Origin: Devosia chinhatensis
GTDB lineage: Bacteria; Pseudomonadota; Alphaproteobacteria; Rhizobiales; Devosiaceae
Direction: 5' to 3'
Length of the DNA: 64,000 nucleotides
Assembly: GCF_000969445.1 (NCBI RefSeq)
Contig: NZ_JZEY01000061.1
Coordinates: 1,227,501 to 1,291,500, forward strand
Every line of letters begins with the position of its first letter. Within the stretch, counting starts at the first letter, position 1. The notes below the pieces were generated by a model. It was given only the letters and a program-made list of their open reading frames with translations, did no database searches and was not told the DNA's origin. The translations under genes were made by a program, and so were the position numbers. This document shows positions 7,507 to 22,740 of this stretch, piece after piece.

Positions 7507-9360
7507 ATGTCGGACACGCTGAGCCTCATGACGGCATTGATCGGTGCCGACGGTGATCCACAAGATGCGTCCGCTCTTTTGGACGAGGCTTTGCTGGCCG
7601 AGGTCGACCCGCTGCATTTTTGTGCCCTCTATCTGCGGCTGGATCCGGCACTTGTCATGGAGCGGGCAGCGGCGTGGCTGGGCCTGGCCTTCTACGCCAC
7701 CCTGCCGCCTCTGGCGCTGCCAACGCTCGCCCCGACCCGGCTCGAGGTTCTCGCAGAGGTGCGGATGTTTCGCATGCGCATGGCGGGCACCGAAATCGCC
7801 TTTGCGGCACCGGATTTTTTCGGGCTGCTGCGTCTGCGCAAGGTTTATGAAAGTAATCCGGAACTGCGCCGCCATGTCTGCATCGTGCCGCAGGCCCTGC
7901 TGGGCGACTTGCTGGTCCAGGCTGCCGAGGAGGCGCTGGTCGATGGGGCGCGGCAGACGCTGGCCAAATCCTGGCCGCATGCAGCCGCCCAGCTCGACCT
8001 GACCCGCCCAGTGCGGTGGAGCTTTGCCATCGGCCTGATGCTGCTTGTGGTGATGGCGCTGCTGGCGCCCCTGGCCGAAGAAATGCTGCTGCTGCCGATC
8101 TGGGTGCTTCTGGTGGTCGCGCCGATCCTCTTGCGGATGGCCATGCTGCTGACACCGAATACGCCCCCCTTTGTGGCCCCTAAAGGCGGCTTCGAAGACG
8201 ACTTGCCGCTCTATACCATTCTCGTCCCCCTGCGCGACGAGGCCAATATGGTGGGCCAGCTCTGCGTCAGCCTGGGTCGCCTCGATTACCCGCGCGAGAA
8301 GCTCGAAATCCTCTTCGTGGTGGAGAGCCGCTCACCCGATACGATTGCCGCCGTGCGCGAGCGCCTCCATGATGCAAGGTTCGGCCTTGTCGTGGTGCCC
8401 GATGCGCCGCCACGAACCAAGCCGAAGGCGCTCAACTTTGCGTTGCCGCTTTGCCGCGGCGAGTTCGTCGTTGTCTTCGATGCCGAAGACCGGCCCGAGC
8501 CTGGGCAATTGCGGCAGGTGGTGGCCCAGTTCCGGCAGCAGCCGGACGTCCACTGCATCCAGGCTCGCCTGGTCATCGGCAATGGCACGCAAGGGCCGCT
8601 GGCGGCTCTGTTTGCCGGCGATTATGCGGGTCTCTTCACCGTTACCCTGCCGGCGCTGGCCCGCTGGGGCGCGGTCATGCCGCTGGGTGGCACGTCCAAC
8701 CATTTCCGGCTGGCGACCCTTCGGGAGCTCGGTGGCTGGGATGGCTTCAACGTGACCGAGGATGCCGACCTGGGCGTTCGGCTGGCGCGCCGCACCCTGC
8801 GCACCGCGACCAGCGCCAGCGTGACTTACGAGGATGCGCCCACCAATCTCAAGGTCTGGCTGGGACAGCGCACCCGGTGGATGAAGGGTTGGCTTCAGAC
8901 CTTCGCGGTTCACAATCGCCGGCCGCGACGCTTGCTGGCCGATCTGGGATGGCGGGCCTTCTGCCTGTTTCAGGTGACGATCCTGGGCATGGTGCTGGCG
9001 CCCTTACTGCACACCGCCTTTGCCGGGATGCTCGCCTTTCGGTTGATCACCGGGACGCCATCCGAGCCCGTCACCAGCTCTTGGGCACTGGCGTGCCTCG
9101 TCATTTTTGCCTGTGGCTATGGTCTTGCCAGCGCCACCAATTTCATCGGTCTATCGCGGACCGCGCAATCCGGACTCGGCGTGGTGCAACTGCTTCTGCC
9201 GGTTTATTGGCTCCTGGTGGCCTTTGCCACGCTGCGGGCCATGGTCGAATTTCTCCATCGCCCCTTCCATTGGTGGAAGACACCCCACCAGGTGACCCGG
9301 CCGCCGCAACCCAGACCGCCTCGGGATCAAAGGCCTGTTGCCGTTCCGAGTGCCGAATGA
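7507..9360 (+). CDS. Membrane glycosyltransferase family 2 protein with N-terminal extension
   Basis: Processive-type GT2 enzyme of the inner membrane, likely adding sugars to an exported glycan; the donor and product cannot be read from sequence. The 617-residue protein starts with about 165 soluble residues of unclear fold, two membrane segments (about 170-190 and 195-218), then the GT2 domain from about 230 (TILVPLRDEANMVG), the DxD-like FDAEDRPEPGQL (about 323), TEDADLGVRLAR (about 416) with the catalytic Asp, and the QRTRW product-binding motif (about 452), followed by membrane segments up to about 590. The layout resembles cellulose-synthase-like proteins of rhizobia. The C-terminus is Pro/Arg-rich and cytoplasmic. 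It is convergent with the small membrane peptide at 9370-9447. Confidence 0.82.
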   Translation: MSDTLSLMTALIGADGDPQDASALLDEALLAEVDPLHFCALYLRLDPALVMERAAAWLGLAFYATLPPLALPTLAPTRLEVLAEVRMFRMRMAGTEIAFAAPDFFGLLRLRKVYESNPELRRHVCIVPQALLGDLLVQAAEEALVDGARQTLAKSWPHAAAQLDLTRPVRWSFAIGLMLLVVMALLAPLAEEMLLLPIWVLLVVAPILLRMAMLLTPNTPPFVAPKGGFEDDLPLYTILVPLRDEANMVGQLCVSLGRLDYPREKLEILFVVESRSPDTIAAVRERLHDARFGLVVVPDAPPRTKPKALNFALPLCRGEFVVVFDAEDRPEPGQLRQVVAQFRQQPDVHCIQARLVIGNGTQGPLAALFAGDYAGLFTVTLPALARWGAVMPLGGTSNHFRLATLRELGGWDGFNVTEDADLGVRLARRTLRTATSASVTYEDAPTNLKVWLGQRTRWMKGWLQTFAVHNRRPRRLLADLGWRAFCLFQVTILGMVLAPLLHTAFAGMLAFRLITGTPSEPVTSSWALACLVIFACGYGLASATNFIGLSRTAQSGLGVVQLLLPVYWLLVAFATLRAMVEFLHRPFHWWKTPHQVTRPPQPRPPRDQRPVAVPSAE

Positions 9361-9369
9361 TCGCAAGCG

Positions 9370-9447
9370 TCACCAATTAAGGAGGATGGCGGCGCTGATC
9401 ATCGCCGCGATGGCACAGACCAGAAGAATCCAGCGATTGACACTCAT
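9370..9447 (-). CDS. 25-residue single-span membrane micro-protein ending the mrp/two-component operon
   Basis: ATG at 9447-9445 with a good Shine-Dalgarno (AGGAGCAAG) and a TGA at 9370-9372, starting 27 bp after the stop of the sigma-54 activator and on the same strand. The peptide begins MSVNRWILL and is almost entirely hydrophobic (residues 6-23), so it is predicted to be one membrane helix with a charged N-terminus. No family is recognised. Position and ribosome-binding site suggest it is the last gene of the mrp operon, perhaps a modulator of the sensor kinase or the antiporter; that role is inference. Confidence 0.55.
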   Translation of the reverse strand: MSVNRWILLVCAIAAMISAAILLNW

Positions 9448-9474
9448 CGACTTGCTCCTGTGTTAAGGCCGGCA

Positions 9475-10821
9475 TCACTTGCCATCGTCAGCACTTTCGA
9501 TGCCGTAGCGGCGCATTTTTTCCCATAAAGTGGTGCGGGAGACGCCCATCAGCCGGGCGGCGTCCTGCACCCGCCCGCCGGCTTGCTGCAAAACAGCTCT
9601 GATATGGCTGGCTTCGGCTCGCTCCCGCACGAGGCTGAGACTGAGATCGCTCTCTGGCGGCGCAAGATTTTCTACCGCATGGGCGATGCGGTCCGGCCAG
9701 AAGTCGCGCATGCGCACGCGGCCCTCCTCGCCCAGGGCGACCGCCCGCTCCACCCGGTTGACCAGTTCGCGGACATTGCCGCGCCACTTGTCGCTCAGCG
9801 CCAGGGCCAGAACATCGGCGTCCAGTTCTGGCACCGTGCGTCCCATGCGACGCGCTGTCTTGTTCAGCTGGTAGCGGACCAAAGGCTCGATTTCGGCAGG
9901 GCGCGAGCGCAGCGGCGGCATGTCGAGCGTCACGACATTGATCCGGAAAAACAGGTCCTCGCGAAAGGCGCCCTGCGCCACGGCCTTGGGAAGATCGGCA
10001 TTCGTGGCAAAAACGAAGCGGGCCGGGGTGGTGAGCGTCTCCGTACCACCCAGGCGCCGGAATTCGCGCATCTCAATGAGACGCAGGAGCTTGGCCTGAA
10101 GCACCGGGCCGATCTCGGCCACTTCGTCGAGGAAGAGCGTTCCGTCGCCCGCTTGCTCGACGAGGCCCGGCTGGCGGGCGACGGCCCCCGTAAAGGCGCC
10201 TTTTTCGTGGCCGAACAGCGCATCGTCGAAAAGGCTTTCGGGGATGCTGGCACAATTGAGCGCCACAAAAGGCTTGCTGGCTCGCGCGCCGCTGGCATGG
10301 AGATAGCGCGCCGCAACGTCCTTGCCGGTCCCCGTTTCGCCCTGGATCAGCACCGGCACGTCAAGGTCCGCCACCCGGTCGAGCGTGCGCCGGATGTCCA
10401 GCGTCGCCGGGGAAAGACCGAAACTGGCAAAGGGGTCGGTGTCTTCGCGTAGGCTCTCACCGAGAATGAAGCGTACCTTGTCGACCAGGGCATCGATATC
10501 GAAGGGCTTTTCGACATAATCCCGAGCGCCGCGCTTGATCAGTCGAACGGCATCCTCGAGATCGGCAAAGGCCGTCATGAAAAGGGTCGGCACGACGCCA
10601 TAGGCATCGAACAGCTCCGCCATCAGCGCGCCGCCATTGCCATCAGGCAACCTGATATCGGACAGGACGAGGTCGGCGGCATGGCCCGAAAGGGCGCCCC
10701 GCGCCTCGGCGATGGTGGTGAACCAGCTGACGCGAAAGCCCTCGAGCAGGAAGCGCTGCCGCAGCGATCGACCGAGAACCGGATCATCTTCCACAATGGC
10801 AATAAGGGGCTTGTCAGCCAT
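9475..10821 (-). CDS. Sigma-54-dependent response regulator (NtrC/DctD type)
   Basis: Transcription activator for sigma-54 promoters. It has 448 residues: receiver domain with the acidic pocket EDD (11-13) and phospho-acceptor Asp55 in LVLSDIRLPDG, an AAA+ domain with Walker A GETGTGKD (161-168) and the sigma-54 contact loop GAFTGA (208-213), and a C-terminal Fis-type helix-turn-helix (QDAARLMGVSRTTLWEKMRR). Start ATG at 10821 overlaps the kinase stop by 8 bp; an ATG at 10839 would add MKKGRR. It is paired with the upstream kinase and lies at the end of the mrp operon, whose first gene has a sigma-54 promoter, so mrp itself is the obvious target. Confidence 0.93.
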   Translation of the reverse strand: MADKPLIAIVEDDPVLGRSLRQRFLLEGFRVSWFTTIAEARGALSGHAADLVLSDIRLPDGNGGALMAELFDAYGVVPTLFMTAFADLEDAVRLIKRGARDYVEKPFDIDALVDKVRFILGESLREDTDPFASFGLSPATLDIRRTLDRVADLDVPVLIQGETGTGKDVAARYLHASGARASKPFVALNCASIPESLFDDALFGHEKGAFTGAVARQPGLVEQAGDGTLFLDEVAEIGPVLQAKLLRLIEMREFRRLGGTETLTTPARFVFATNADLPKAVAQGAFREDLFFRINVVTLDMPPLRSRPAEIEPLVRYQLNKTARRMGRTVPELDADVLALALSDKWRGNVRELVNRVERAVALGEEGRVRMRDFWPDRIAHAVENLAPPESDLSLSLVRERAEASHIRAVLQQAGGRVQDAARLMGVSRTTLWEKMRRYGIESADDGK

Positions 10822-12322
10822 TCTCCGGCCTTTCTTCATTGCCCGAATGTGAGAGGAACAGCACGCTGACCACGGTGCCCCGACCTACCGTGCTCTGCAC
10901 CGAGACGGTGGCCCCCAGTTCGTCGGCCAGGGAATGCACGACCCAGAGGCCGAGGTCCCGGGAGCCCGCAAGCGTCCCGGCCAGCCCGGCTTCGAGATGC
11001 TGGCGCACCCCTTCGGGCATGCCACTGCCTTGGTCGCTAATCGCGATGCGCACACCGGCCTCTTCGGTGCGCGCGCTCACCTCCACCAGGCCGCCCGGAG
11101 GGCTGGCCTTGCAGGCATTGAGAAGGAGATTGACCAGCATCTGCCGTACGGCGTCGGCATCGGCCACGATGAGGGTATTGTCGGGAATATCCCAGCGCAG
11201 CTGCAGATCCCTTTGCTTGACCTGCGGGGAGATGATGAGGGCGAGGTCTGCGATGTCACTGCCGGTGATGATGCCGTCTCCGGGTCGACGCCGATATGTG
11301 GACAGCGTCACATCTGTCAGCCGCTGCAAGGCGTCGAGCCCGCCCTCGATGATGTCGAGCGTTTCATCGCGCACCGACTGGTCATGGCCGAAGCGGCGCA
11401 GGGTCGAAAAGGCATTGCGGATGCCGGCCAGCGGGTTGCGCACTTCATGAGCGAGCGTGGCCGCGAGCCTGGCCAGAACCTGATCGCGTTCCTGCTGGGC
11501 AAGCCGGCGGGCGATGCTGTCCCGGGATTTTTCGTCCTCTCGGCGTAACGCCAGAATGGTCTCGATCTCGAGGATTTCCGAGCTCAGATATTGCCCGGAC
11601 AGAACATCGGCGTTGCTGGTGCCACCCTCGGCCAGCCGGTTTGCCAGCGCGACCAGCGGCGAGATCGCGGCCCGGGCCAGAAGATAGGCCGCACCCGCAA
11701 TGGCCAGCGCTACGAGCAGGCTCAACCCCAGCGCGGCCTGGTGCACAGCTTCGTTGGCCGCGGCCAGCGCGCTGGTGTCGAAAATGCCGCTGATGGCAAA
11801 AAGGCTCGGCCCGTCTCCATAAACGTTGGTCAGAACCCCCCGCGCATTGTCGCGAAGGACAAAGGGTGAGCCGCGCCCGACCTCCAGAGCCGCGAGGAGG
11901 TCGCCGCGCAACGACTCGGTCGCAGTCTCGGGAATGGCGAGCACATTGATGCCGTCGGCATTGCGCCAGGCCACGGCCAGCGCCTCTTCCTGCAGCACGG
12001 TCTTAAAGGACAGGGCAGACGTCAGCGCGTCGGTGAAGGCGCTTTCGGACAGCGAGGGGCTATTGGCGAAATGCCCGGCTGTTGCATCGAGAAAGACCTG
12101 CGCCTTGTCGGCGACGAATTCGGTGTTTTGTCGATTGACGAGATCAGCCGTGAGCCAGGAAATGGTCAGCGTCACCACGAACACGACCAGTGATAGCGCC
12201 AGAGGCATGATCGTCGTCAGGCGCAGGGACGGAAACCCGAACCAATTGCCGCGGCCCTTTGGGCCAGCGGCTGGGAATTTGCCGACGGGGGCGGGGGCAG
12301 AGGCTGCGTTCGGATCGGGCAT
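10814..12322 (-). CDS. Sensor histidine kinase paired with the sigma-54 activator
   Basis: Inner-membrane kinase of 502 residues. A Pro/Ala-rich cytoplasmic N-terminus (1-35) leads to a membrane segment (about 37-60), a periplasmic sensor of about 130 residues, a second membrane segment (about 195-220), a HAMP-like linker, a HisKA domain with the phospho-acceptor His in AATLAHEVRNPLAGIRNAF, and a HATPase with the N-box LLLNACKASPPGG and the GSGMPEG motif. HEVRNPL is typical of NtrB/DctB-class kinases that work with NtrC-type regulators. It starts only 9 bp after mrpG stops, and the regulator overlaps its end. The signal sensed is unknown; sodium, pH or membrane stress would fit the context. 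Confidence 0.9.
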   Translation of the reverse strand: MPDPNAASAPAPVGKFPAAGPKGRGNWFGFPSLRLTTIMPLALSLVVFVVTLTISWLTADLVNRQNTEFVADKAQVFLDATAGHFANSPSLSESAFTDALTSALSFKTVLQEEALAVAWRNADGINVLAIPETATESLRGDLLAALEVGRGSPFVLRDNARGVLTNVYGDGPSLFAISGIFDTSALAAANEAVHQAALGLSLLVALAIAGAAYLLARAAISPLVALANRLAEGGTSNADVLSGQYLSSEILEIETILALRREDEKSRDSIARRLAQQERDQVLARLAATLAHEVRNPLAGIRNAFSTLRRFGHDQSVRDETLDIIEGGLDALQRLTDVTLSTYRRRPGDGIITGSDIADLALIISPQVKQRDLQLRWDIPDNTLIVADADAVRQMLVNLLLNACKASPPGGLVEVSARTEEAGVRIAISDQGSGMPEGVRQHLEAGLAGTLAGSRDLGLWVVHSLADELGATVSVQSTVGRGTVVSVLFLSHSGNEERPENG

Positions 12323-12331
12323 GATGCCAAT

Positions 12332-13567
12332 CTAGCCCGCTTTGGGCGTCGACGGAACGACCAGCACATCTCCTGTCCAATTCGGTGCCAGTCGATCATG
12401 CCAGGACTGGCCATACCAGTCCGCCCGCTTGGGGCTTGGCAGCGTCGTTGTCACAAGCGCATCGGCATCCGCACCCCCCGCGGGGAGTGGCGCATTGGGG
12501 GCCGCGTCGAGGAGGCGGTCATCGAGTGTAGCGCCATGCCGCTCGGCAATGACGGCAAAGACATCCCGCCGTGCCAAGCCACCCCGATTGATCAGCACGA
12601 GGCGTGGTGCGACCCAGATACGGGTGCGCAAGGCCCAGTCGAGACCTTCGGCAATCTCCAGGCTGCCATCGTCCTCGATCAGGATGGTGGGGCTCCTGGG
12701 GACAGTGTCGCGGTGGACAAACAGCACGCTGCCGGCATGATGGTCGGGCAGTTTCAACAGCCCTTCCGGTCGGCCCGTGGCGCCGGGCGTCGGCAGGTCG
12801 ACGCCGTGATGGCACCAGCCGTGGCTGGGCAGGATCAGCAGCGAGGCGCGGTCCGAGCCCGTTGGGATGAGCTTGAGCGGGTCACCTTCCTCATAGGACA
12901 AGGTGAAGAAGGATCGCTTCTTGGGCAGCGTCGCTTCCAGTTCCTCGATAGCCAGAGACAGCTTTTCGCGCACTTTCGAACGGGCCCGCTGCGGATCGGA
13001 GGTTGCTTGCAGGAAGGCCTCGTCGATGACGGCAATGGCCTTGAGCGGCACCTTGGCCAGGTTGCGGATGGCGATTGCCCGGCGCAGAGCGGGCGCAATG
13101 TCGGGAGCCATCACGCCAAGACGCACCTCGCTGAGATCGGCAATGACCTCGGGCGCGACCGAGGCGGTTTCCCGGCGCGATGAGAGGGGGCTATAGGCCA
13201 CGAATTGCGTCCGCGCTTCGAGTGGCACATCCTGGCGTTCAAGGACGCCGAGGAGCGCATTGCGTCCGGCGATCAGTCGCAGGGGTGCGCCGGACACATA
13301 GGCTGCCCGGCCCAACAGATGGGCGGCCACCGGCACGGTGAGCAGCATGAAGACAATGGCCATGCTGCCGATGGCGGCGGTGCCTTCTCCCAGGAGGATC
13401 ATGGCGCCGAGCACCGCGAAGATTGCGCCCAGCGTTCCGGCTTTGGTGGAGGCATGCATGCGTTGCAACGCATCGGGAAAACGCAGGACGCCTATGGCAG
13501 CGGCGATGACGAAGCCGACGCCCAGGGCCAGCATCAAAAGGCCCAGAAACTGCATGGCCCAGGTCAT
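12332..13567 (-). CDS. mrpG: Mrp antiporter subunit G fused to a large C-terminal cytoplasmic domain
   Basis: Residues 1 to about 100 are a complete MrpG/MnhG/PhaG subunit with three membrane segments and the family stretch GVLRFPDALQRMHASTKAGTLG (split here over about 26-47). Normal MrpG proteins are about 100-130 residues; this one has 411. The extra 300 residues are soluble. The part from about 140 to 265 (RLGVMAPD, then an Ala-rich helix, later ASLLILPSHGWCHHGVD) resembles a universal-stress-protein fold with its strand-SHG nucleotide loop, and the rest is unassigned. The start ATG overlaps the mrpF stop by 4 bp, so the gene is translated with the complex. A frameshift fusion is unlikely because no separate start or family boundary lies inside. 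Confidence 0.85.
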   Translation of the reverse strand: MTWAMQFLGLLMLALGVGFVIAAAIGVLRFPDALQRMHASTKAGTLGAIFAVLGAMILLGEGTAAIGSMAIVFMLLTVPVAAHLLGRAAYVSGAPLRLIAGRNALLGVLERQDVPLEARTQFVAYSPLSSRRETASVAPEVIADLSEVRLGVMAPDIAPALRRAIAIRNLAKVPLKAIAVIDEAFLQATSDPQRARSKVREKLSLAIEELEATLPKKRSFFTLSYEEGDPLKLIPTGSDRASLLILPSHGWCHHGVDLPTPGATGRPEGLLKLPDHHAGSVLFVHRDTVPRSPTILIEDDGSLEIAEGLDWALRTRIWVAPRLVLINRGGLARRDVFAVIAERHGATLDDRLLDAAPNAPLPAGGADADALVTTTLPSPKRADWYGQSWHDRLAPNWTGDVLVVPSTPKAG

Positions 13568-13854
13568 TGCTTGTTCCCTCCCTTGCGTTCGAGAAAGGCG
13601 GCCAGCGCGCAGGTGCCCACAAAGCCGAACACGGCAACGCCAAAGGCGACATCGAGAAATTCACGCCGCCCGGTCACGACCGAGGTCAGAGCGGCCATGG
13701 CCACGGCAATGCCGGTCAACATGTCGAGCGCCACGAAGCGGTCGGCGATCCCGGGACCACGCAGCATTCGCAAAAAGGTGAGCACCAGGGGCGCACACAG
13801 CACGAGCAGCAATCCAAAGCTGCCCAGCGTCACAAGGCCATCCTGCCCCATCAT
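13564..13854 (-). CDS. mrpF: Mrp cation/proton antiporter subunit F
   Basis: Small hydrophobic subunit of the Mrp (Mnh/Pha) antiporter. The true protein has 96 residues, begins MMGQDGLVTLG and has three membrane segments, with the family core FLRMLRGPGIADRFVALD (about 27-44) and TGRREFLDVAFGVAVFGFVG (about 61-80). The start ATG at 13854 overlaps the mrpE stop (ATGA); the longer open frame upstream is only read-through of another frame of mrpE. The stop overlaps the mrpG start. Confidence 0.93.
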   Translation of the reverse strand: MMGQDGLVTLGSFGLLLVLCAPLVLTFLRMLRGPGIADRFVALDMLTGIAVAMAALTSVVTGRREFLDVAFGVAVFGFVGTCALAAFLERKGGNKQ

Positions 13855-14207
13855 GGCGTTCCCTCCATGCGCAGAACCCATTTCTCGAAGCTGGTCTTGA
13901 TCGAGCGGATCACGTCTTCCTCGTCGAGCGTATCGAGGGCGTGGATATAGAGGATGCTGCCGTCCTCGCTCGTATGCAGCGACGTGGTGCCCGGCGTCAG
14001 CGACACCAGATTGGCAACGATGCTGACCCCCAGTCGTGTCCGCAGCTTCAGCGGCACCGCCACGATGGCCGGTTGCACGTCGATCTTCCTGGCAAAGGCG
14101 GTGCGGGCGACGATGATGGAGGAGAGCAGCAATTCCCGCACGAATATTCCCGCGAGGACCAGTGCAGCCCAGAGCCGGGGCATCGGACCTGTTCGGCGAT
14201 CTGTCAT
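13851..14207 (-). CDS. mrpE: Mrp cation/proton antiporter subunit E, short form
   Basis: 118-residue MrpE, starting MTDRRTGPMPRLW at an ATG that overlaps the mrpD stop (ATGA). It keeps the conserved parts of the family: FVRELLLSSI (about 22-31), AIVAVPLKLRTRLGVSIVANL (about 48-68), SLTPGTTSLH (about 69-78) and the C-terminal IKTSFEKWVLR. Usual MrpE proteins have about 160 residues; the first one or two membrane segments are missing here, leaving about one membrane span. The 4-bp overlap shows that this is the natural start and not an annotation error. Confidence 0.9.
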   Translation of the reverse strand: MTDRRTGPMPRLWAALVLAGIFVRELLLSSIIVARTAFARKIDVQPAIVAVPLKLRTRLGVSIVANLVSLTPGTTSLHTSEDGSILYIHALDTLDEEDVIRSIKTSFEKWVLRMEGTP

Positions 14208-15727
14208 GACGCATCTCCGCTTTCGGGGGAAAGGGCCGTACCCAGCACGGCATCGATGTAACTTGACGGGTCGAGCAGCGCCGCGGCCGCTGCCTCGGCG
14301 TAAACGACGAAGGGTTCTGGCGAAAAGCCGATGACGAGGGTCAAAAGCCCCAATCCCGCCATGGGCAGCAGCATCAGCACGGGCACGCGCCGCGGCTTCT
14401 TCCGCTGCACCGGCGGCGCTTTCCAGAACGCTTCCACCCAGATCTTGGACATGGAAAAGACGGTCAGCAGACCCACCACCAGACCGATGCCGGCCAGCCA
14501 ATGCGCTTCAGCGGCGAAGGCTGCGTCGATGACCATGAACTTGGCCCAGAAGCCGGAAAGCGGGGGGATGCCGGCCAGGGACAGGGCAGGAACGGCAAAG
14601 AGCAGGGCCAATAGTGGATGGCTGGCCATCAGTCCGCCGGCCCGGCGCAGGTCATAGGTCCCGCTGGCGCGGTAGATTGCTCCCGCTGCCAGGAACAGAT
14701 TGGCTTTCACGATGATATGGTGGACGATGTAGAACACCGCGCCCGCCATGGCAGCCGGTGTCGCCAGCGCCAGCCCCAGCATCATGTAGCCGATCTGGCT
14801 GACGATGTGGAACGAGAGGATGCGCCTGATGTCCCATTGCACGGCGGCGCCGAACACGCCAAACAGCATGGTGCCGGCGGCCATGACGGCAACGACCTCG
14901 CGTACGCCGCCGTCCTCGACCGAGAACAGCAGGGTAAAGACGCGGAAGCTGGCATAGACGCCCACTTTGGTGATGAGGCCGGCAAAGATCGCCGACACGA
15001 CGATGGAAGCCGTGTGGTAGGAGGCCGGCAGCCAGAAGAAGAGCGGGAAATACCCCGCCTTGATGCCGAAGGCGACGAGGAACAGCGCCGCCACCAGCCC
15101 CAAAGCCGCAGACGGCTCGGCATCGGCCAGCACAAGCCCGAGATCGGCCATGTTGAGCGTGCCGGTCGCGCCATAAAGGATGCCGACGGCCAGAAGAAAG
15201 AGCAGTGTGCCAAGCAGGTTGAGCACCGCATATTTGATCGTGCCGTCGAGCTGGGCGCGGGTCCGGTCGATGGCCAGAAGGCCCATTGCCGTGATCAGCA
15301 TGATCTCGAACCAGACATAGAGATTGAAGACGTCGCCGGTGAGGAACGCGCCGGCGACAGCCGCGATCATGCCCAGGTAAAGCGGATGAAAACCGGCATG
15401 TTCCTGCCGGCGCCTGATGTCGGCGAAGCCGAACACGATGATCGAGAAGGCCAGGATGGCCGTGATCAGCGCCATGGCCGCGCCGAGGCGATCGGCGACG
15501 AAGACAATGCCGAACGGCACGGGCCAGCCGCCGAAGGCAATCATCTGCGTGCCATTCTGCTCGACCTGAACCAGAAGCAGAATGCTCGCTGCGAGCATGA
15601 GCGCGAGGGCGAGAAGGCTGATGCCGCGCTGGATCGCCGGGCGATGCCAGGCCAGCGCGCAGAGGGCGGCAGCGGCCAGGGGGATAATGACCGGCCAGGT
15701 CAGGGCTTGGGAGGCGAGCAGGTTCAT
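14204..15727 (-). CDS. mrpD: Mrp cation/proton antiporter subunit D
   Basis: Large proton-translocating subunit related to respiratory complex I NuoM/NuoN. The 507-residue protein has about 14 membrane segments, with the catalytic Glu of NLYVWFEIMLITAMGLL (about 135-150), the Lys-bearing helix around GIKAGYFPLFFWLPASYHTA (about 222-241) and the discontinuous helix near FYIVHHIIVKANLFLAAGAI. It overlaps mrpC and mrpE by 4 bp each, which indicates tight translational coupling. Together with MrpA it is expected to form the proton and cation path. Confidence 0.95.
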   Translation of the reverse strand: MNLLASQALTWPVIIPLAAAALCALAWHRPAIQRGISLLALALMLAASILLLVQVEQNGTQMIAFGGWPVPFGIVFVADRLGAAMALITAILAFSIIVFGFADIRRRQEHAGFHPLYLGMIAAVAGAFLTGDVFNLYVWFEIMLITAMGLLAIDRTRAQLDGTIKYAVLNLLGTLLFLLAVGILYGATGTLNMADLGLVLADAEPSAALGLVAALFLVAFGIKAGYFPLFFWLPASYHTASIVVSAIFAGLITKVGVYASFRVFTLLFSVEDGGVREVVAVMAAGTMLFGVFGAAVQWDIRRILSFHIVSQIGYMMLGLALATPAAMAGAVFYIVHHIIVKANLFLAAGAIYRASGTYDLRRAGGLMASHPLLALLFAVPALSLAGIPPLSGFWAKFMVIDAAFAAEAHWLAGIGLVVGLLTVFSMSKIWVEAFWKAPPVQRKKPRRVPVLMLLPMAGLGLLTLVIGFSPEPFVVYAEAAAAALLDPSSYIDAVLGTALSPESGDAS

Positions 15728-16104
15728 TTGCCAGCCTCCTTGTCATAGGGCGAGCCGAGCGCCTCGGCGGATCCGAGGTCGCGCTGGTCAAGCGTGCCGC
15801 TGGTGCGGAAGGTCTGCAGCGCCAGGGCGGCAGCGAAGGCGACCAGCGAGAAGCCGATGACGATCGCGGTCAGCACCAGCGCCTGCGGCAGCGGATTGGC
15901 AGCATCGGCCACAAGCGTATAAGCACCGGTTTCGATCAATGGCGGCGGGTTGGGGCCGATACGCCCGGCCAGGAATATGACGAGGTTCACCCCGGCCGAC
16001 ATCAGCATGACGCCGAGCAGGATGCGCATCGTGTGACGCGAGAGCAGCATATAGATGCCGCAGCCCATGATGGCTGCGATGCCGGCAGCGAAGATAAGGG
16101 TCAC
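15724..16104 (-). CDS. mrpC: Mrp cation/proton antiporter subunit C
   Basis: 126-residue subunit related to NuoK, with three membrane segments. Recognisable are [26 protein letters not shown] (split over about 17-42) and the C-terminal [22 protein letters not shown] with the conserved [14 protein letters not shown]-type motif. The start is a GTG at 16104 that overlaps the mrpB stop (GTGA). Confidence 0.94.
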
Positions 16105-16508
16105 GGTGCATCCTCATAAAGACGAAAAACCAGGGCCAGCATGCCGCCCAGCACCACCAGATAAACCCCGATATCGAAGACCATGGTCGTGCCCAGCTTG
16201 AAGCCGTTGGGAAAGAACACCCATTGATGAGCGAGATAGGAGCCGTCGACCCAGAGGCCCGGCAAACCACTGATAAAGCCGAGGAACACGCCCAGTCCCG
16301 CCAGGCTCATGGGATGGATGCGCAGGAGGGCGCGGGCTTTGGGCACGCCTTCGGCAAGGGCGATGACCGCCAGGGCCATGGCGGCGACGAGCCCACCGAC
16401 AAAGCCGCCTCCCGGCTCGTCGTGACCCCTCCACAGGATAAAGATCGACGCTGCCAGCATGAGGCCGAACAGGATGCGGGCGCTCGAGGTGAAGATGAGC
16501 GAGTTCAT
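16101..16508 (-). CDS. mrpB: Mrp cation/proton antiporter subunit B
   Basis: 135-residue MrpB with four membrane segments. The family motif [19 protein letters not shown] (about 27-45) is intact, and the C-terminal [21 protein letters not shown] is typical. It starts 3 bp after the mrpA stop. Because MrpA here also carries its C-terminal MbhE/MrpB-like part, the operon has the standard seven-gene (group 1) composition. Confidence 0.94.
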
Positions 16509-16511
16509 GGG

Positions 16512-18821
16512 CTAGCCTTTCCGGTCGACGCGACGGCGGCGCAGCAAGGCCCAGGCGCCCATCGTGGCGAAGGCCACCACGGCGATTTCGCCCAGCGTAT
16601 CGAGCGCGCGGTAATCGACGATGATGACGTTGACGACATTGTGCCCCTGCGCCTCGGTATAGCTGGTCGCGCCGTAGAACGCGGAAATGCGGGGGTCGAA
16701 GGGGATGGCCAGCATCGCCACGAGGCCGATGAACACCACCACCGAAAAGCTCAGGGCGATGACCGCGTCCAGCTTGCGCTCTCCCGGCTTGCGGGTCGGC
16801 TCGGTCGTCGTCGGCAGGCGCAGGAGCACTGCCATGATCACCACGAGCACCAGCGTTTCGACGGCAAACTGGGTGAGGGCCAGATCAGGCGCACCGTTGA
16901 GCACGAAGAGCAGGGCCGAGCCATAGCCGACAATGCCCACCCCGATCAGCGCCGCTACCAGCGAGCGAACCCGGGTCGCGACCAGGGCGCCGACCAACCC
17001 GGCCGCCAGCAGCAGGGTCGGAACAGGCAGGACCGGATCCAGCGGGGCCATCGCAAATTGTCCGGTGTGCCACAAGACCCAGGCACAGGTTGCGAGCAGG
17101 GTCAGCATCACCAGCACCGAATAATGGCGCTGGTCGCCATTCTGCAGCCACCGGGTGGCCGCACGGGCGAGAGAAAGAATGGCCTCGACGACGCGATAAT
17201 AGAGGCGGTCGGCATCGAGACGTTGCGACCAGCCTGAGGCCCGGATGCCATCGTGCAGAGCATCCCATTTCCACGCCAGGACAGCGCCCAGCCCGATGGC
17301 TGCCATGCTGAGAAACAGCATGGGCGTGATGCCGTGCCAGAGCGAGAAGCTGGTATCGATTGGCGCGCCGTAAAGCGCCGTCGCGGCAGGCCCGACGAGG
17401 TGCCGGGTAATGAGGCCGGGCACGAGCCCCATGATAATGCCGGTCACCCCCAGCAGCAGCGGTCCGAACAGCAGGCCCGGCGTCTCGCCATGATGCACGT
17501 GGCTGATCTTGTCTCGGCCCAGGAAAAAGGGCCGCAGCGAGACGACGCCTGCCACCGAAACCATGATGCCGTTGACCAGCACAGCGATGATCACCGGAAC
17601 GACGTTCCAGCCGCTTTCGAGCTGCGCCTCGAACAGATATTCCTTTGAGATGAAGCCGATGAAGGGCGGCAGGCCAGCCATGGAGAAGCTGGCCAGCACC
17701 GCGGCGGCGGCCGTAAACGGCAGGAAGCGCACCAGTCCGCCCAGCTTGCGCAATTCGGCGATATGGGTGGCATGGATTGCCGTGCCGGCGCAGAAGAACA
17801 GGGCGGCCTTGTAAAGTGCGTGCGCCAGGATAAAGCCTGCCGTGGCGACCGCTGCGACCTCGCCGTCGAGCCCGATCAGCATGACCAGGATGCCGAGGGA
17901 CGCAACGGTCGATTGCGCCAGGATTGCCTTGTAGCCGGTCGCCCGCAGGGCATTGAGCGCCGCAATGGACATCGTCAATGAGCCAAAGATGACCAATGTT
18001 ACGCCGAAGGCGGGGACTTGGGCGAAAGCCGCGTCGAACCGGCCGAGCAGGTAGATGCCCAGTTTCACCATCGTGGCCGAATGCAGATATGCCGATGCCG
18101 GCGTCGGCGCCGCCATGGCCTGTGGAAGCCAGAAATGGAACGGAAACTGTGCCGACTTGGTAAAGGCGCCCAGAAGCAGCAGCACGACGATGGCCACCAG
18201 ATAAGGGCTTTCGGCGATGCGGTCGGCGCTGCCGGCCACGGCGCTGAGGCTGAAGGTGCCAAGATCCAGCCCGATCAGCAGGATGGCACCGAAAAGCGCC
18301 AGGCCCCCGCCCGCCGTGATCAACAGCGATTGCAGCGCCGCCCGGCGCGCTTCGACCTTGCGGGCCTCGAAGCCGATCAACATGAAGGAGGTAAGGCTCG
18401 TGGCTTCCCAGAAGACGAACATGACGATGAGGTTGTCCGAAAGGACGGTGCCCAGCATGGCCGTCATGAAAATCAGGATGAGGAGGATGAAGCGGGCGCG
18501 CGTCTTGGCGGGCGCATCCGCGAAATAGGCCCCGGCATAAAGGGTGACCAATGTACCGATACCGGTGATCAGGAGACCGAAGAGATAGGAAAAGCCGTCA
18601 AGCCGCAAGGCGAGGACGACGCCCAGTGAGGGCACCCAGTCCAGCGCCTCGGTGACGACGCCACCATTGGTGATGTCTGCCCAATGCGCCAGCAGGCCGA
18701 AAAAGAGTGTTGCGGGAATGGCGACCGGCAGAAGCCGCCCAAGAGGCCCGGCCAGCGCGGATAGCCGCCAGCCCACCAAGCTGCCCACGGCAGACAGGAT
18801 CAGCACTGTGAGAAGAGACAC
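16512..18821 (-). CDS. mrpA: Mrp cation/proton antiporter subunit A
   Basis: First and largest subunit (769 residues from the GTG at 18821), related to NuoL. It has about 20 membrane segments, the conserved region FVFWEATSLTSFMLIGFE with its functional Glu, FWLPQAMAAPTPASAYLHSATMVK (split around 220-243), and the C-terminal extension NGAPDLALTQFAVETLVLVVI (about 640-660) followed by the RALDTLGEIAVV stretch typical of MrpA. Start choice: a TTG at 18839 gives a longer frame, but GGAGG at 18835-18831 lies nine bases before the GTG at 18821, which is therefore preferred. It is the first gene of an operon that continues through mrpBCDEFG to the two-component genes. Confidence 0.94.
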   Translation of the reverse strand: MSLLTVLILSAVGSLVGWRLSALAGPLGRLLPVAIPATLFFGLLAHWADITNGGVVTEALDWVPSLGVVLALRLDGFSYLFGLLITGIGTLVTLYAGAYFADAPAKTRARFILLILIFMTAMLGTVLSDNLIVMFVFWEATSLTSFMLIGFEARKVEARRAALQSLLITAGGGLALFGAILLIGLDLGTFSLSAVAGSADRIAESPYLVAIVVLLLLGAFTKSAQFPFHFWLPQAMAAPTPASAYLHSATMVKLGIYLLGRFDAAFAQVPAFGVTLVIFGSLTMSIAALNALRATGYKAILAQSTVASLGILVMLIGLDGEVAAVATAGFILAHALYKAALFFCAGTAIHATHIAELRKLGGLVRFLPFTAAAAVLASFSMAGLPPFIGFISKEYLFEAQLESGWNVVPVIIAVLVNGIMVSVAGVVSLRPFFLGRDKISHVHHGETPGLLFGPLLLGVTGIIMGLVPGLITRHLVGPAATALYGAPIDTSFSLWHGITPMLFLSMAAIGLGAVLAWKWDALHDGIRASGWSQRLDADRLYYRVVEAILSLARAATRWLQNGDQRHYSVLVMLTLLATCAWVLWHTGQFAMAPLDPVLPVPTLLLAAGLVGALVATRVRSLVAALIGVGIVGYGSALLFVLNGAPDLALTQFAVETLVLVVIMAVLLRLPTTTEPTRKPGERKLDAVIALSFSVVVFIGLVAMLAIPFDPRISAFYGATSYTEAQGHNVVNVIIVDYRALDTLGEIAVVAFATMGAWALLRRRRVDRKG

Positions 18822-18854
18822 GACAGACAACCTCCGCAATTCGCGGATACCGTC

Positions 18855-18869
18855 GCAAGCCTCGTGCCA
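18855..18869 (-). promoter_or_regulatory. Sigma-54 (-24/-12) promoter of the mrp operon
   Basis: On the minus strand TGGCACG (18869-18863), AGGC, TTGC (18858-18855) matches the sigma-54 consensus TGGCACG-N4-TTGC, with the invariant GG and GC exactly ten bases apart and a T-tract just upstream. Transcription would start near 18843, about 22 bp before the GTG start of mrpA and its GGAGG. The operon itself encodes a GAFTGA-bearing activator. Confidence 0.82.
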
Positions 18870-18910
18870 GAAAAAAATTGAGCAAAATCAAAGGTGCGGG
18901 CAAAGAGCCG

Positions 18911-18956
18911 GTCCGCTTATCCGAACCGGACACCCCATGCGTTCGGTTTTCCGAAC
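18911..18956 (-). promoter_or_regulatory. Two tandem dyads, candidate enhancer sites for the sigma-54 activator
   Basis: Site 1 is a perfect dyad GTTCGGTTTTCCGAAC (18941-18956, extended by one pair of bases on each side and more). Site 2 is GTCCGCTTATCCGAAC (18911-18926), with the same right half and a degenerate left half. The sites are exactly 30 bp apart, about three helical turns, and lie roughly 70-115 bp upstream of the predicted start, the usual place for NtrC-type enhancers. The rest of the gap up to the tRNA shows nothing else. Confidence 0.6.
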
Positions 18957-19042
18957 GCTCTGTGCGCAAGCATTGCCAGCCAACCGAGCTGCCGCGCTCG
19001 TCGCCAGACCAAGGGTAATGTAAAGACTTGTCGGGGCGAAAT

Positions 19043-19116
19043 TGGAGCGGGTGAAGGGAATCGAACCCTCGTCGTAAGCTTGGGAAGCTTCTGCTCTACC
19101 ATTGAGCTACACCCGC
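19043..19116 (-). tRNA. tRNA-Gly (CCC)
   Basis: The minus strand reads GCGGGTG acceptor arm, TAGCTC D arm, anticodon loop TTCCCAA (anticodon CCC), T arm GAGGGTTCGATTCCCTT and closing CACCCGC, then TCCA, so the CCA end is encoded. The anticodon stem has a G-A mismatch at its outer pair. The sequence closely follows the layout of bacterial glyU. No intrinsic terminator is visible downstream before the mrp control region. Confidence 0.95.
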
Positions 19117-19213
19117 CTGGCGCTGGTCCAGGGTGCTGGTCGGTTGCAACCAGCCCGGCGATAGATGCTGGAAATCAAAGGGGGCGTCAAGGTGCTCCGC
19201 GCATCTGCGCCGG

Positions 19214-20416
19214 CTAGAGCCTTATACTGGCATTCATGAAATAGCGCTCGAAGAGCGGGCTGGCCGCGGCGCCCAATGCCCGGGCATTTCCGCCCACCGC
19301 GCCGGCCTCGATGCGGGGGGCGATGAGGCCGCGCATGTCCTGGTTGACGAGATAACGCCGCGTGCGCTCGACGAGGTCGTGCTTGACCATTTCGGGAAAG
19401 GCGCCATCGATCAGGATGGCCTCGAAATCGATCACGGCGCAGACGGAAAGGCTGGCCCGGGCCAGTTCCTGTGCCGTCCGCCCGAGCCAAGGATCGACGA
19501 ACCGGGAAAACCGGCTCCAGTCCTGCGGCTGCGCCCAAAGATCGCGTGGGTCGTGGCCGTTCTCGGCCAGGCGCGCCTCGAGCAGGTGGATCGAGGCGGT
19601 GTCGATCAATTGCTGGCTTTCCCCTTGTGGGCCGAAACTGCGCAACGACCCCAGAGCGCCGGCATTGCCGTGATGGCCCTGATAGACCGAATGATTGAGG
19701 ACGATGCCGCCGCCAATAAAGGCACCGATGAAGAAATAGGCGTAATCACGAAACTCCTTGCCGCGCCCATAGATCTGTTCGGCCTGGCAGCCAGCGGTAG
19801 CGTCATTGACCATGCTGACCGGCAGGTCGGTAAATTTTGCCAGCTCGGCGACGAAGTCGACATCCTTCCAGGAAACGAAATCGTCGGATGGAGGGCCCAC
19901 CAATTCGTTCCAGCGCCAGAGCTCGAACGGCAGGCCGATGCCGATACCGCAGATGCGCTGGCGTTCTGTGGGGCTGCATGCCGCAAGGATGGTCTTGAGC
20001 CCTTCTTGGAGAAAGGTAAAGATCGGGCCGGGCAGGGGATATTCGTAGGTCAGCTGCAATTCCTGCCGAACCGTGCCGCGAAAATCGGCAAGCAGCAGCA
20101 CCGCGCTGCGCCGCCCGATCTTGCAGCCCAGGGAGAGCACGCCATTTTCTGCCAGATGCATGGGCACGGAAGGCTTACCCACCTTCCCCTTGATCGGGGT
20201 GCCGCGCTCGAGCAGCCCTTCGGCCTCCATTTCGCGCAGGATGATCGAGATGGTCTGTGGAGACAGGTTTGCGAGCCGCGCCAATTCGCTGCCGGCGGTC
20301 GGGCCATTGCGCTGCAGCAGGGTCAGCAGCAGACGTTCATTATAGTCGCGAACCCCACTTTGGTTCACGCCCCCGCTCAGCGATCGGATGACTGCATTGT
20401 CCATGGCGCGCACCAT
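19214..20416 (-). CDS. frcR: ROK-family transcriptional regulator, probable FrcR
   Basis: NagC/XylR-type sugar-responsive repressor of about 400 residues. An N-terminal winged helix-turn-helix (LLLTLLQRNGPTAGSELA then LSPQTISIILREMEAEGLL) is followed by the ROK actin-like fold: GIGIGLPFELW, FVAELAKFTDLPVSMVNDATA and the glycine-rich FFIGAFIGGGIVLN with HHGNAGALGS. The zinc-type CGxxGC segment of kinases is absent, as expected for a regulator lacking sugar kinase activity. It is divergent from frcBCA. Start is uncertain: TTG 20422, ATG 20416 and ATG 20404 are all in frame with weak ribosome-binding sites. Confidence 0.85.
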   Translation of the reverse strand: MVRAMDNAVIRSLSGGVNQSGVRDYNERLLLTLLQRNGPTAGSELARLANLSPQTISIILREMEAEGLLERGTPIKGKVGKPSVPMHLAENGVLSLGCKIGRRSAVLLLADFRGTVRQELQLTYEYPLPGPIFTFLQEGLKTILAACSPTERQRICGIGIGLPFELWRWNELVGPPSDDFVSWKDVDFVAELAKFTDLPVSMVNDATAGCQAEQIYGRGKEFRDYAYFFIGAFIGGGIVLNHSVYQGHHGNAGALGSLRSFGPQGESQQLIDTASIHLLEARLAENGHDPRDLWAQPQDWSRFSRFVDPWLGRTAQELARASLSVCAVIDFEAILIDGAFPEMVKHDLVERTRRYLVNQDMRGLIAPRIEAGAVGGNARALGAAASPLFERYFMNASIRL

Positions 20417-20459
20417 AATCAAGGCTATGCCATCACGGAAGATAGCCCGCCTGAAATAA

Positions 20460-20511
20460 ATAAATAAACTAGATTTATATATTGACGAGGCCTGGAATCC
20501 GTTTCACGATA
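20460..20511 (+). promoter_or_regulatory. Candidate frcB promoter and AT-rich operator
   Basis: ATAAAT (20460-20465), seven bases, ATTTAT (20473-20478) forms an AT-rich dyad like NagC/Mlc sites. Directly after it TTGACG (20482-20487) could be a -35 box, with a weak ACGATA (20506-20511) as -10. An operator next to the -35 box would suit repression by the divergent ROK protein. Confidence 0.4.
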
Positions 20512-20591
20512 TGGGCGTGCAATCAAGCAAGCCGGTGTCAGGCCGAGGGGGAAGGAGCCCTTTCTGAACTGCCGGACCAGGGAGAGAGAAC

Positions 20592-21605
20592 ATGAAAAAG
20601 CTGCTTTTGGGCACGGCCTTGTGCCTGGCTGCCATGACGCCTGCGGCAATGGCCCAGGATGTGAGCGCCTGCCTCATCACCAAGGCCGATACCAATCCGT
20701 TTTTCGTCAAGATGAAGGAAGGCGCCGAGGCCAAGGCTGCCGAGCTGGGCGTGACGCTCAAGTCCTATGCCGGCAAGATCGACGGCGATCATGAAACCCA
20801 GGTGGCGGCCATCGAAACCTGCATCGCTGATGGCGCCAAGGGCATTCTGATAACGGCCTCGGATACCTCTGCAATCGTGCAATCGGTGCAGCAGGCCCGC
20901 GACGCCGGCCTCGTCGTCATCGCACTCGATACGCCCCTCACGCCGATCGATGCCGCCGATGCCACCTTTGCCACCGACAATTTTCTGGCCGGTGAACTGA
21001 TCGGAAAGTGGGCCGCCGCCAAGATGGGCGCGGAAGCTGCCAATGCCAAGATCGCCATGCTGGACCTGGCGGTCAGCCAGCCCAGCGTCGACGTCTTGCG
21101 CGACCAGGGGTTCCTCACAGGCTTTGGCATCGACGTCGCCGATCCCAACAAGTGGGGCGATGAAACCGATCCACGCATCGTCGGCCATGACGTGACCGCG
21201 GGGAACGAGGAGGGTGGCCGCAAGGCGATGGAAAACCTGCTCGCCAAAGACCCGATGATCAACCTCGTCTATACGATCAATGAGCCCTCCGCTGCCGGTG
21301 CCTACGAGGCCCTGAAGTCGATCGGCCGGGAGAATGACGTCACCATCGTTTCCGTCGACGGCGGCTGCCCCGGCGTCGCCAATGTGAAGGACGGCGTGAT
21401 CGGCGCTACCTCCCAGCAATATCCCCTGCAGATGGCGGCACTCGGCGTCGAGGCGATCAAGGCCTGGGCCGATAGCGGCGCCAAGCCCGAACCAACCCCC
21501 GGCAAGGACTTCTTCGACACCGGCGTCAAGCTTGTGACCGATACGCCGGCCGATGGCGTCGAGTCCATCGACAGCGCCGAAGGCACCAATCTCTGCTGGG
21601 GCTAG
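20592..21605 (+). CDS. frcB: Sugar ABC transporter periplasmic binding protein, FrcB-like
   Basis: 337-residue type I periplasmic binding protein. The signal peptide [21 protein letters not shown] is cleaved before QDVSACL. The mature domain begins with the ribose-binding-protein pattern [19 protein letters not shown], then [28 protein letters not shown] and the C-terminal [15 protein letters not shown]. The sequence and the order regulator-B-C-A match the rhizobial fructose/mannose/ribose importer Frc. It delivers sugar to the FrcC permease; exact sugar is inferred. Confidence 0.88.
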
Positions 21606-21681
21606 GCCTCGCATAGACCCAGATCACGGCGGGGGCGGCAGCACAGTTGCCCCCGCGTTCATCCCCAGGGGAGGTAGGCCC

Positions 21682-22740
21682 ATGTCGAACCCGTCCGAGG
21701 CCGAGCAGGGCCTCACGAGGCGCAGCGAAAGCATTGCCAGTTTCGATCATCAGATGACCCTATTGTCGCGTGTCCAGCATGCGCTGCATTCGAACCCGGC
21801 GCTGGTCCCGCTCATCGTCCTCGTATTTTCGGTCATTGTCTTCGGAGCCCTTCTGGGCACCAAGTTCTTCTCGTCCTTTGCCATGACGCTGATCCTCCAG
21901 CAGGTGGCCATTGTCGGCATCGTCGGCGCGGCCCAGTCTCTGGTGATCCTTACCGCCGGCATCGATCTGTCCGTGGGCGCGATCATGGTGCTCAGCTCGG
22001 TGATCATGGGCCAGTTCACTTTCCGCCTGGGCATGCCGCCGGCTGTTGCCATTGCCTGCGGCCTCGTGGTCGGTACCTTCATCGGGTTCGTCAACGGCTG
22101 GCTCATCGCGCGGGTGAAGCTGCCTCCGTTCATCGTCACTCTGGGTATCTGGCAAATCGCTCTTGCCACCAACTTCCTCTATTCGGGCAACGAAACCATC
22201 CGCGCCCAGGAAATCGAGACCCAGGCCCCATTGCTGCAGTTTTTCGGCAAGTCCTTCACCCTGGGCGGCGCGGTGTTCACCTATGGGGTGATCTTCTTCA
22301 TCGTGCTGGTGCTGGTCCTGGCCTATGTGCTGCGTCACACCGCATGGGGGCGCCATGTCTATGCCGTGGGGGACGATCCGGATGCAGCCGCGCTTTCCGG
22401 CGTCAACACCAAGCGCATCCTCATTTCGGTCTATATGCTGTCCGGCCTCATCTGCGCCTTTGCCGGCTGGGTCCTGATCGGCCGCATCGGTTCCGTGTCG
22501 CCGACATCGGGGCAATCGGCCAATATCGAATCCATTACGGCCGTGGTGATCGGGGGCATTTCGCTGTTCGGCGGGCGCGGTTCGATCATGGGCATGTTCT
22601 TCGGCGCGCTCATCGTGGGTGTCTTCTCGCTTGGCCTGCGCCTGATGGGCGCCGACGCGCAATGGACTTACCTGCTCATCGGCGCCCTCATCATTGCCGC
22701 CGTTGCCATCGATCAGTGGATCAGAAAGGTGTCTGCCTGA
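21682..22740 (+). CDS. frcC: Sugar ABC transporter permease, FrcC-like
   Basis: Inner-membrane permease of the RbsC family, 352 residues from the ATG at 21682, which has GGGGAGG eight bases upstream. It has about ten membrane segments and the family stretches SLVILTAGIDLSVGAIMVLSS, FVNGWLIARVKLPPFIVTLG, YAVGDDPDAAALSGVN and VVIGGISLFGGRGSIMG, the cytoplasmic loop that contacts the ATPase. The stop overlaps the frcA start (TGATG). Confidence 0.92.
   Translation: MSNPSEAEQGLTRRSESIASFDHQMTLLSRVQHALHSNPALVPLIVLVFSVIVFGALLGTKFFSSFAMTLILQQVAIVGIVGAAQSLVILTAGIDLSVGAIMVLSSVIMGQFTFRLGMPPAVAIACGLVVGTFIGFVNGWLIARVKLPPFIVTLGIWQIALATNFLYSGNETIRAQEIETQAPLLQFFGKSFTLGGAVFTYGVIFFIVLVLVLAYVLRHTAWGRHVYAVGDDPDAAALSGVNTKRILISVYMLSGLICAFAGWVLIGRIGSVSPTSGQSANIESITAVVIGGISLFGGRGSIMGMFFGALIVGVFSLGLRLMGADAQWTYLLIGALIIAAVAIDQWIRKVSA

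Follow-up and report, generated by a model that had tools for sequence, protein, structure and literature searches.

An Mrp antiporter operon in the 64 kb stretch of DNA analysed here (the window, meaning the whole of that stretch) very probably carries its own self-amplifying switch, made up of a predicted sigma-54 promoter before mrpA and an NtrC-type regulator encoded at the end of the operon. The promoter and dyad motifs, the domains of the regulator, and the joint conservation of these with the operon are visible in the sequences compared; binding, phosphorylation, a single transcript and feedback are inferred, the positive feedback from gene order alone.

The switching-on of Mrp antiporter operons seems little described. 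The available portion of the text of an Mrp review (PMC5703873) contains none of the words 'sigma', 'transcription' or 'two-component', and a search of the open-access literature, outside which most subscription journals lie, brought to notice no study of mrp regulation by sigma-54. The parts are known in kind (sigma-54 promoters, NtrC-type regulators, Mrp antiporters and USP domains), while their combination was not found in print in that open-access search. A dedicated, self-amplifying sigma-54 switch would offer a concrete, testable answer to how mrp is activated, for one lineage; the tail of MrpG would place a candidate sensor within the antiporter, and the circuit would be a possible origin for the one that controls bacterial arsenite oxidation.

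The operon and its genes

On the minus strand the gene order is mrpA, B, C, D, E, F and G, followed by the genes of a histidine kinase and an NtrC-type response regulator:

16512..18821, minus strand: mrpA, with a GTG start (an alternative TTG at 18839 lies very near the predicted transcript start)
16101..16508, minus strand: mrpB (Pfam MnhB)
15724..16104, minus strand: mrpC (Pfam Oxidored_q2)
14204..15727, minus strand: mrpD (Pfam Proton_antipo_M)
13851..14339, minus strand: mrpE, start unsettled (Pfam MNHE)
13564..13836, minus strand: mrpF (Pfam MrpF_PhaF)
12332..13567, minus strand: mrpG with a C-terminal USP-like part (MrpG part by Pfam, tail by profile)
10814..12322, minus strand: sensor histidine kinase, AioS-like (Pfam, homology searches)
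9475..10839, minus strand: NtrC-type response regulator (sigma-54 activator), AioR-like (Pfam, HTH comparison, tree)

The regulator, described in an earlier note on this DNA as GAFTGA-containing and NtrC-type, is indeed present at the operon's end, and consists of a receiver domain, an AAA+ domain with GAFTGA and a Fis-type HTH (Pfam; GAFTGA in the open reading frame). The mrpF and mrpG genes overlap, mrpG and the kinase gene are 9 bases apart, and the regulator gene overlaps the kinase gene by 26 bases; the overlaps and the short gap would support one transcript, which remains an inference.

The same packing speaks against a rival reading that is quite possible, although we give it less than even weight: that the regulator drives mrp while the kinase-regulator pair is made mainly from a separate internal promoter, leaving no real feedback loop. 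A loop without a basal source could not start, and the basal supply is unexplained; moreover, the aioXSR genes of strain NT-26 have RpoD and RpoE2 promoters of their own, according to the part of the source available (PMC6011840). A candidate for such a promoter is a sigma-70-like match at 11259-11232, on the operon's strand, inside the kinase gene and before the regulator gene. The scan of 8000-22000 that yielded it gave three sites in total, against 1.9 expected by chance, and the match is within that expectation. Feedback through a single transcript remains the reading that we prefer.

A predicted sigma-54 promoter with two upstream dyads

The features upstream of mrpA are the following:

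18855..18869, minus strand: sigma-54 -24/-12 element TGGCACGAGGCTTGC, called from sequence, 11/12 to TGGCACGNNNNTTGCW
18941..18956, no strand: putative upstream activator dyad 1 (GTTCGGNNNNCCGAAC, GTTCGGTTTTCCGAAC), beginning 87 bases upstream of TGG
18911..18926, no strand: putative upstream activator dyad 2 (GTCCGCTTATCCGAAC), beginning 57 bases upstream of TGG
19043..19116, minus strand: tRNA-Gly(ccc), context only, on the promoter's strand and upstream of it

Read on the minus strand (18869-18855), the element has the form TGGCAC-N5-TTGC with GG and GC ten bases apart, as the earlier note had it, and 33 bases separate it from the mrpA GTG at 18821. The two dyads of that note are likewise where it had placed them, their starts 30 bp apart, and dyad 1 is part of a perfect 20-base palindrome. 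Assuming about 12 bases after the GC, a transcript start near 18843 is inferred, which puts the dyads about 68-113 bp upstream of it, in keeping with the 70-115 bp first proposed. The window's genome has one rpoN match (E 1.8e-67).

The intergenic stretch between the tRNA gene and mrpA is 221 bases long, and in 100,000 dinucleotide shuffles of it a site of at least 11/12 to TGGCACGNNNNTTGCW arose 356 times, a dyad pair (each at least 11/12, spacing 26-37 bp) in 0/100,000, and a promoter match together with a dyad pair in 0/100,000. The mrpA element with its dyads is far beyond chance. Transcription of mrp mainly by read-through or from a sigma-70 promoter on the tRNA-Gly side, with the sigma-54 site minor, is conceivable because 173 bases separate the end of the tRNA-Gly gene, which is on the same strand, from TGG; we hold it to be improbable, as no sigma-70-like site was found by the scan of the tRNA-mrpA intergenic stretch and the conserved signal is the -24/-12 element.

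Within the 64 kb window the mrpA promoter is the sole site of at least 11/12 to TGGCACGNNNNTTGCW, and three dyads reach 11/12. The third of these, a lone dyad GTCCGTCAATCCGGAC at 50374-50389, lies within a long open frame reading as a substrate-binding protein, and is most likely a chance occurrence. In the 3.5 Mb genome the perfect dyad GTTCGGNNNNCCGAAC is present in a single copy, and TGGCACGNNNNTTGC in four exact copies, including the mrpA element; allowing up to one mismatch, there are 126 sites, compared with 77 for a reversed control pattern. Among 30 of the 126 sigma-54-like sites whose surroundings were read, the mrpA site alone has a dyad pair, and three others have a single dyad match of 10/12. 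Dyads with 0-1 mismatch number 11 in the genome, the mrpA one included; no sigma-54 site above 9/12 lies 300 bases or less from any of the remaining ten. At one of these ten, a weak second match (9/12) stands 21 bases away. Genome-wide scans of this kind would miss targets with poorer sites.

These counts bear on the proposal that the regulator has other targets and that the dyads upstream of mrpA are the sites of some other protein. There are no binding data to rule this out, yet it has very little in its favour, given the lack of such sigma-54 sites beside the other ten dyads, the joint occurrence of promoter and kinase-regulator pair in 9 to 11 of the 11 operons, and the absence of the promoter from all six operons without the pair.

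The promoter in operons with and without the kinase-regulator pair

A comparison of the region upstream of mrpA in relatives with and without the kinase-regulator pair had been suggested as a check on the predicted promoter, and its outcome agrees with the prediction. Under a strict rule (an xGG site of at least 9/12 to TGGCACGNNNNTTGCW and two upstream dyads, each at least 9/12, with a sum of at least 19 and 26-37 bp apart), the mrpA region passes in 9 of the 11 operons that have the pair, namely the window's own and ten further ones (G000, G006, G189, G368, G277, G315, G145, G205, G553, G774 and G1221), and in none of six operons without it (G204, G134, G154, G114, G078 and G268, drawn from 13 near-MrpA genomes among 249 of the order). 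The one-sided Fisher p for 9/11 against 0/6 is 0.0023, with the qualification that the rows are related and include near relatives (G368/G189, G277/G315). Absence of the pair was judged beside mrp, within the stretch fetched; in G154 and G114 a kinase lies about 5 kb past mrpG, one that looks unrelated (28-29% over the catalytic part). With 42-50% identity between the MrpA proteins of the control operons and that of the window, lineage may account for part of the contrast, although G553 passes with an MrpA (46%) about as distant as the controls.

The two misses are partial. G205 has weaker dyads, GTTCAATCCGGCGAAC and GTTCAAGTTATTGAAC, 30 bp apart at -135/-105, and its TGGCACGGAAGTTTC departs at -12; in G774 a single dyad is clear, at -80, and the TGGCACGGTTCTTGT departs at -12. 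TTGG stands in place of TTGC in G145. The strict rule is also passed by G176, whose contig stretch ends before any kinase could follow. A specificity run over 31 loci (545,543 bases, 556 sigma-54-like sites) returned 20 sites with a dyad pair, of which 10 are before mrpA (including G176), 8 before aioB and 2, weak ones, in Skermanella loci.

Across 19 promoters (G774 and G743 left out) the two dyads are 29-33 bp apart. Most mrp and aio promoters have dyads beginning near -100 and -68 relative to TGG; the starts are -87/-57 in the window, -89/-59 in G006, and -108 to -113 and -76 to -80 in five aio loci. The dyads had been called helically phased, and this holds in so far as their 30 bp spacing is about three turns, but phasing of the dyads to the -24 is not established. 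Helical phasing to -24 was considered and set aside: uniform distances seldom give as much clustering (0.0002, period 10.5), yet no helical period stands out, because the phasing statistic at period 12 (0.79) is no lower than at 10.5 (0.71). A TGG-anchored column footprint gives an identity of 40% in dyad columns against 30% outside them, and is weakened by shifts of 1-2 bases.

Distribution of the pair

The kinase is rare and scattered in its distribution. A full orthologue (67% identity) is found in one other genome (G006) among 75 of the genus. In a sample of the order, 7 of 397 genomes, the window's included, match the kinase at E 1e-50 or better, and all seven matches adjoin mrp genes (in G145 the mrp operon is divided between two contigs). 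In a sample of the class, 5 of 385 genomes besides the window's match at 1e-42; G553 and G774 adjoin mrp, and G796, G743 and G823 adjoin an arsenite-oxidase-type Rieske gene. A phylum sample of 398 genomes gave no kinase match but the window's own. With a relative's kinase as query (E 1e-60), two families were scanned, with matches in 3 of 87 and in 2 of 10 genomes respectively; a new match obtained in this way, G1221, adjoins mrp. The genus, order, class, phylum and family samples overlap. G020 of the same genus has a distant kinase (31%) within an aio-type locus, a contig scan with the kinase query returned just seven distant kinases (22-44% identity over parts of the query), and a plasmid search with that query returned one record, an aio-type locus.

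Two observations concern single loci. The regulator gene of G368 (L065 3664-4987) has a frameshift near its C-terminal end, either genuine or introduced by assembly. In the window (19043-19116, Gly) and in L098 (7279-7353, Gln), an mrp operon of this type directly follows a tRNA gene. This adjacency and the scattered distribution are a hint of island-type insertion; in the window, no second copy of the tRNA end was detected.

Kinship with the regulators of arsenite oxidase

Judged by sequence comparison alone, the window's kinase and regulator are kin of AioS and AioR. The HTH end of the regulator, SRTTLWEKM, is identical in the AioR of NT-26 and Agrobacterium, differs by one to a few residues in other members of the family, and is not common to seven other activators compared from the window's genome. 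Both the window regulator and NT-26 AioR fall below the cut-off of all 25 NCBIfam models among those listed, so family membership was judged by a tree. In this tree of 27 rows, 22 family rows lie on one side of a branch (99/98) that separates them from five other activators of the window's genome. The aio rows form one clade (97/96), with the window regulator outside it, and a second clade (94/92) holds seven mrp rows. Next to aio stand G553 and the Pseudoroseomonas row, G774 is next to the Skermanella rows, and G205 is unplaced. A single mrp clade is rejected (p-AU 4e-7).

On this tree the mrp-linked regulators are paraphyletic around the arsenite clade, which suggests an antiporter switch as a possible origin of the arsenite switch; with the outgroup root, linkage to mrp is the simplest ancestral state. 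The tree is subject to bias, in that the search began from an mrp-linked kinase, arx- and arr-linked members are unsampled, and the outgroup branches are long.

The promoters are alike as well. As far as the accessible part of a 2013 study goes, 12 of 12 aioBA operons with aioXSR have two palindromes and a -24/-12 element (PMC3834237), and disruption of the RpoN site lowered aioBA expression, according to the portion of a review that was available (PMC7533571). By our rule, 8 of 9 aio loci have a dyad pair at similar places before aioB; in the ninth, G743, two dyads 33 bp apart can be found by eye, with no sigma-54-like site by rule.

This shared promoter architecture, and the kinship of the kinase and regulator with AioS/AioR, would also fit a switch that answers arsenite or antimonite as AioXSR does, with mrp induced as an auxiliary of metalloid stress. 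We judge that unlikely, without ruling out that arsenite acts directly as the signal. The 64 kb window yielded no AioX- or AioB-like match (other parts of the genome lie outside this search), nor did the stretches read of the other ten mrp operons; the regulator lies outside the aio clade, and the extracytoplasmic sensor regions of the mrp and aio kinases align poorly. The only PDB match to a profile of the kinase sensor region, one chain at E 0.94, was taken as chance.

The tail of MrpG and the slot before the kinase

The USP-like C-terminal part of the window's MrpG is about 300 residues long and probably consists of two USP-like domains in tandem. Such a part is present on MrpG in all 11 operons with the kinase-regulator pair. 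With starts chosen by script, MrpG has 392-444 residues in these 11 operons, 422 in G176 and 371 in G204, and it is of ordinary length (107-125 residues) in five of the six operons without the pair. In G204 (L099 5911-7023) the USP-like tail occurs with no kinase or regulator match alongside and with no dyad pair before mrpA, and the MrpG fusion can thus exist without the switch.

The assignment of the tail rests mainly on profiles. Its profile A1 matches a stand-alone Skermanella USP over most of its length (hhalign 99.3%, E 4.9e-20), and in the PDB it matches the tandem USP 3ab7 (TTHA0350, E 4.9e-5) and the UspA-family protein 3s3t (2.1e-4). Pfam Usp exceeds its cut-off in two of six MrpG C-termini (L070 and L078) as well as in the Skermanella USP; L066 and L080 score beneath it, and L067 and the window protein give no hit. 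A single-sequence structure model of the window's tail, made with no alignment, was uninformative (mean pLDDT 40.7).

On two Skermanella plasmids (L118 9613-13302; L119 9643-13308) a USP gene stands directly before a kinase and regulator of the same family, with chemotaxis, DUF294, sodium:solute symporter and DUF4212 genes as neighbours and no mrp genes in the 25 kb read; this USP is homologous to the MrpG C-terminus, from which it differs in standing alone. On plasmid pL11-A of Pseudoroseomonas cervicalis (L117, 9490-20082) a TctC-like binding protein, kinase and regulator are followed by PTS IIA and a fused-A/B-type mrp operon, which is a second, differently built link of the regulator family to Mrp. 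No dyad pair with a sound sigma-54 site was found near the Skermanella and Pseudoroseomonas pairs. In annotated aio loci it is AioX or a PhnD-type binding protein that precedes the kinase.

With USP, AioX, PhnD-type and TctC-like proteins all met before the kinase, this slot looks like the place of an input protein, and the stand-alone USP relative before the same type of kinase makes the MrpG tail a candidate sensor. This is an inference, and the kinase's own extracytoplasmic region is an alternative sensor.

The proposed switch

We propose that a signal, most likely one tied to sodium, pH or membrane energy, would activate the kinase, which would then phosphorylate the regulator encoded next to it. 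The phosphorylated regulator would bind the two dyads and form an AAA+ ring that opens the RNA polymerase-sigma-54 complex at 18869-18855, and the whole mrp operon would be transcribed. Since the operon ends with the genes of the kinase and the regulator, activation would raise the level of both. The best candidate for the input is the USP-like part of MrpG, encoded just before the kinase gene, which may feed the state of the antiporter to the kinase.

More tentatively still, and in our view doubtfully, the antiporter may be its own sensor, in that the USP part of MrpG would read ion or nucleotide state at the membrane and gate the kinase from the slot held elsewhere by AioX or the TctC-like protein, and AioXSR would have arisen from an older antiporter circuit by exchange of sensor and target, with the layout of operator and promoter kept.

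Comparison with known systems

The operon shares with known Mrp (Pha/Mnh, CPA3) operons the same seven subunits, A to G, in order; it differs from the usual ones in the USP-like tail of MrpG and in ending with a kinase and a regulator. The nearest regulatory counterpart is AioXSR/aioBA of NT-26 and Agrobacterium, with which it has in common two dyads (consensus GTYCGGNNNNCCGRAC) 29-33 bp apart and a -24/-12 element. The window's dyads lie about 11 bases nearer to the -24 than those of aio promoters, the target is an Mrp antiporter, AioX is missing from the window, and the pair closes the operon rather than opening it: the mrp genes stand before the pair, and the arrangement with aioX before and aioBA after is not met in the 64 kb window. 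Sensors of the KdpD type use a USP domain as part of an ion-responsive signalling system; there the USP domain is in the kinase, whereas here it is fused to a transporter subunit.
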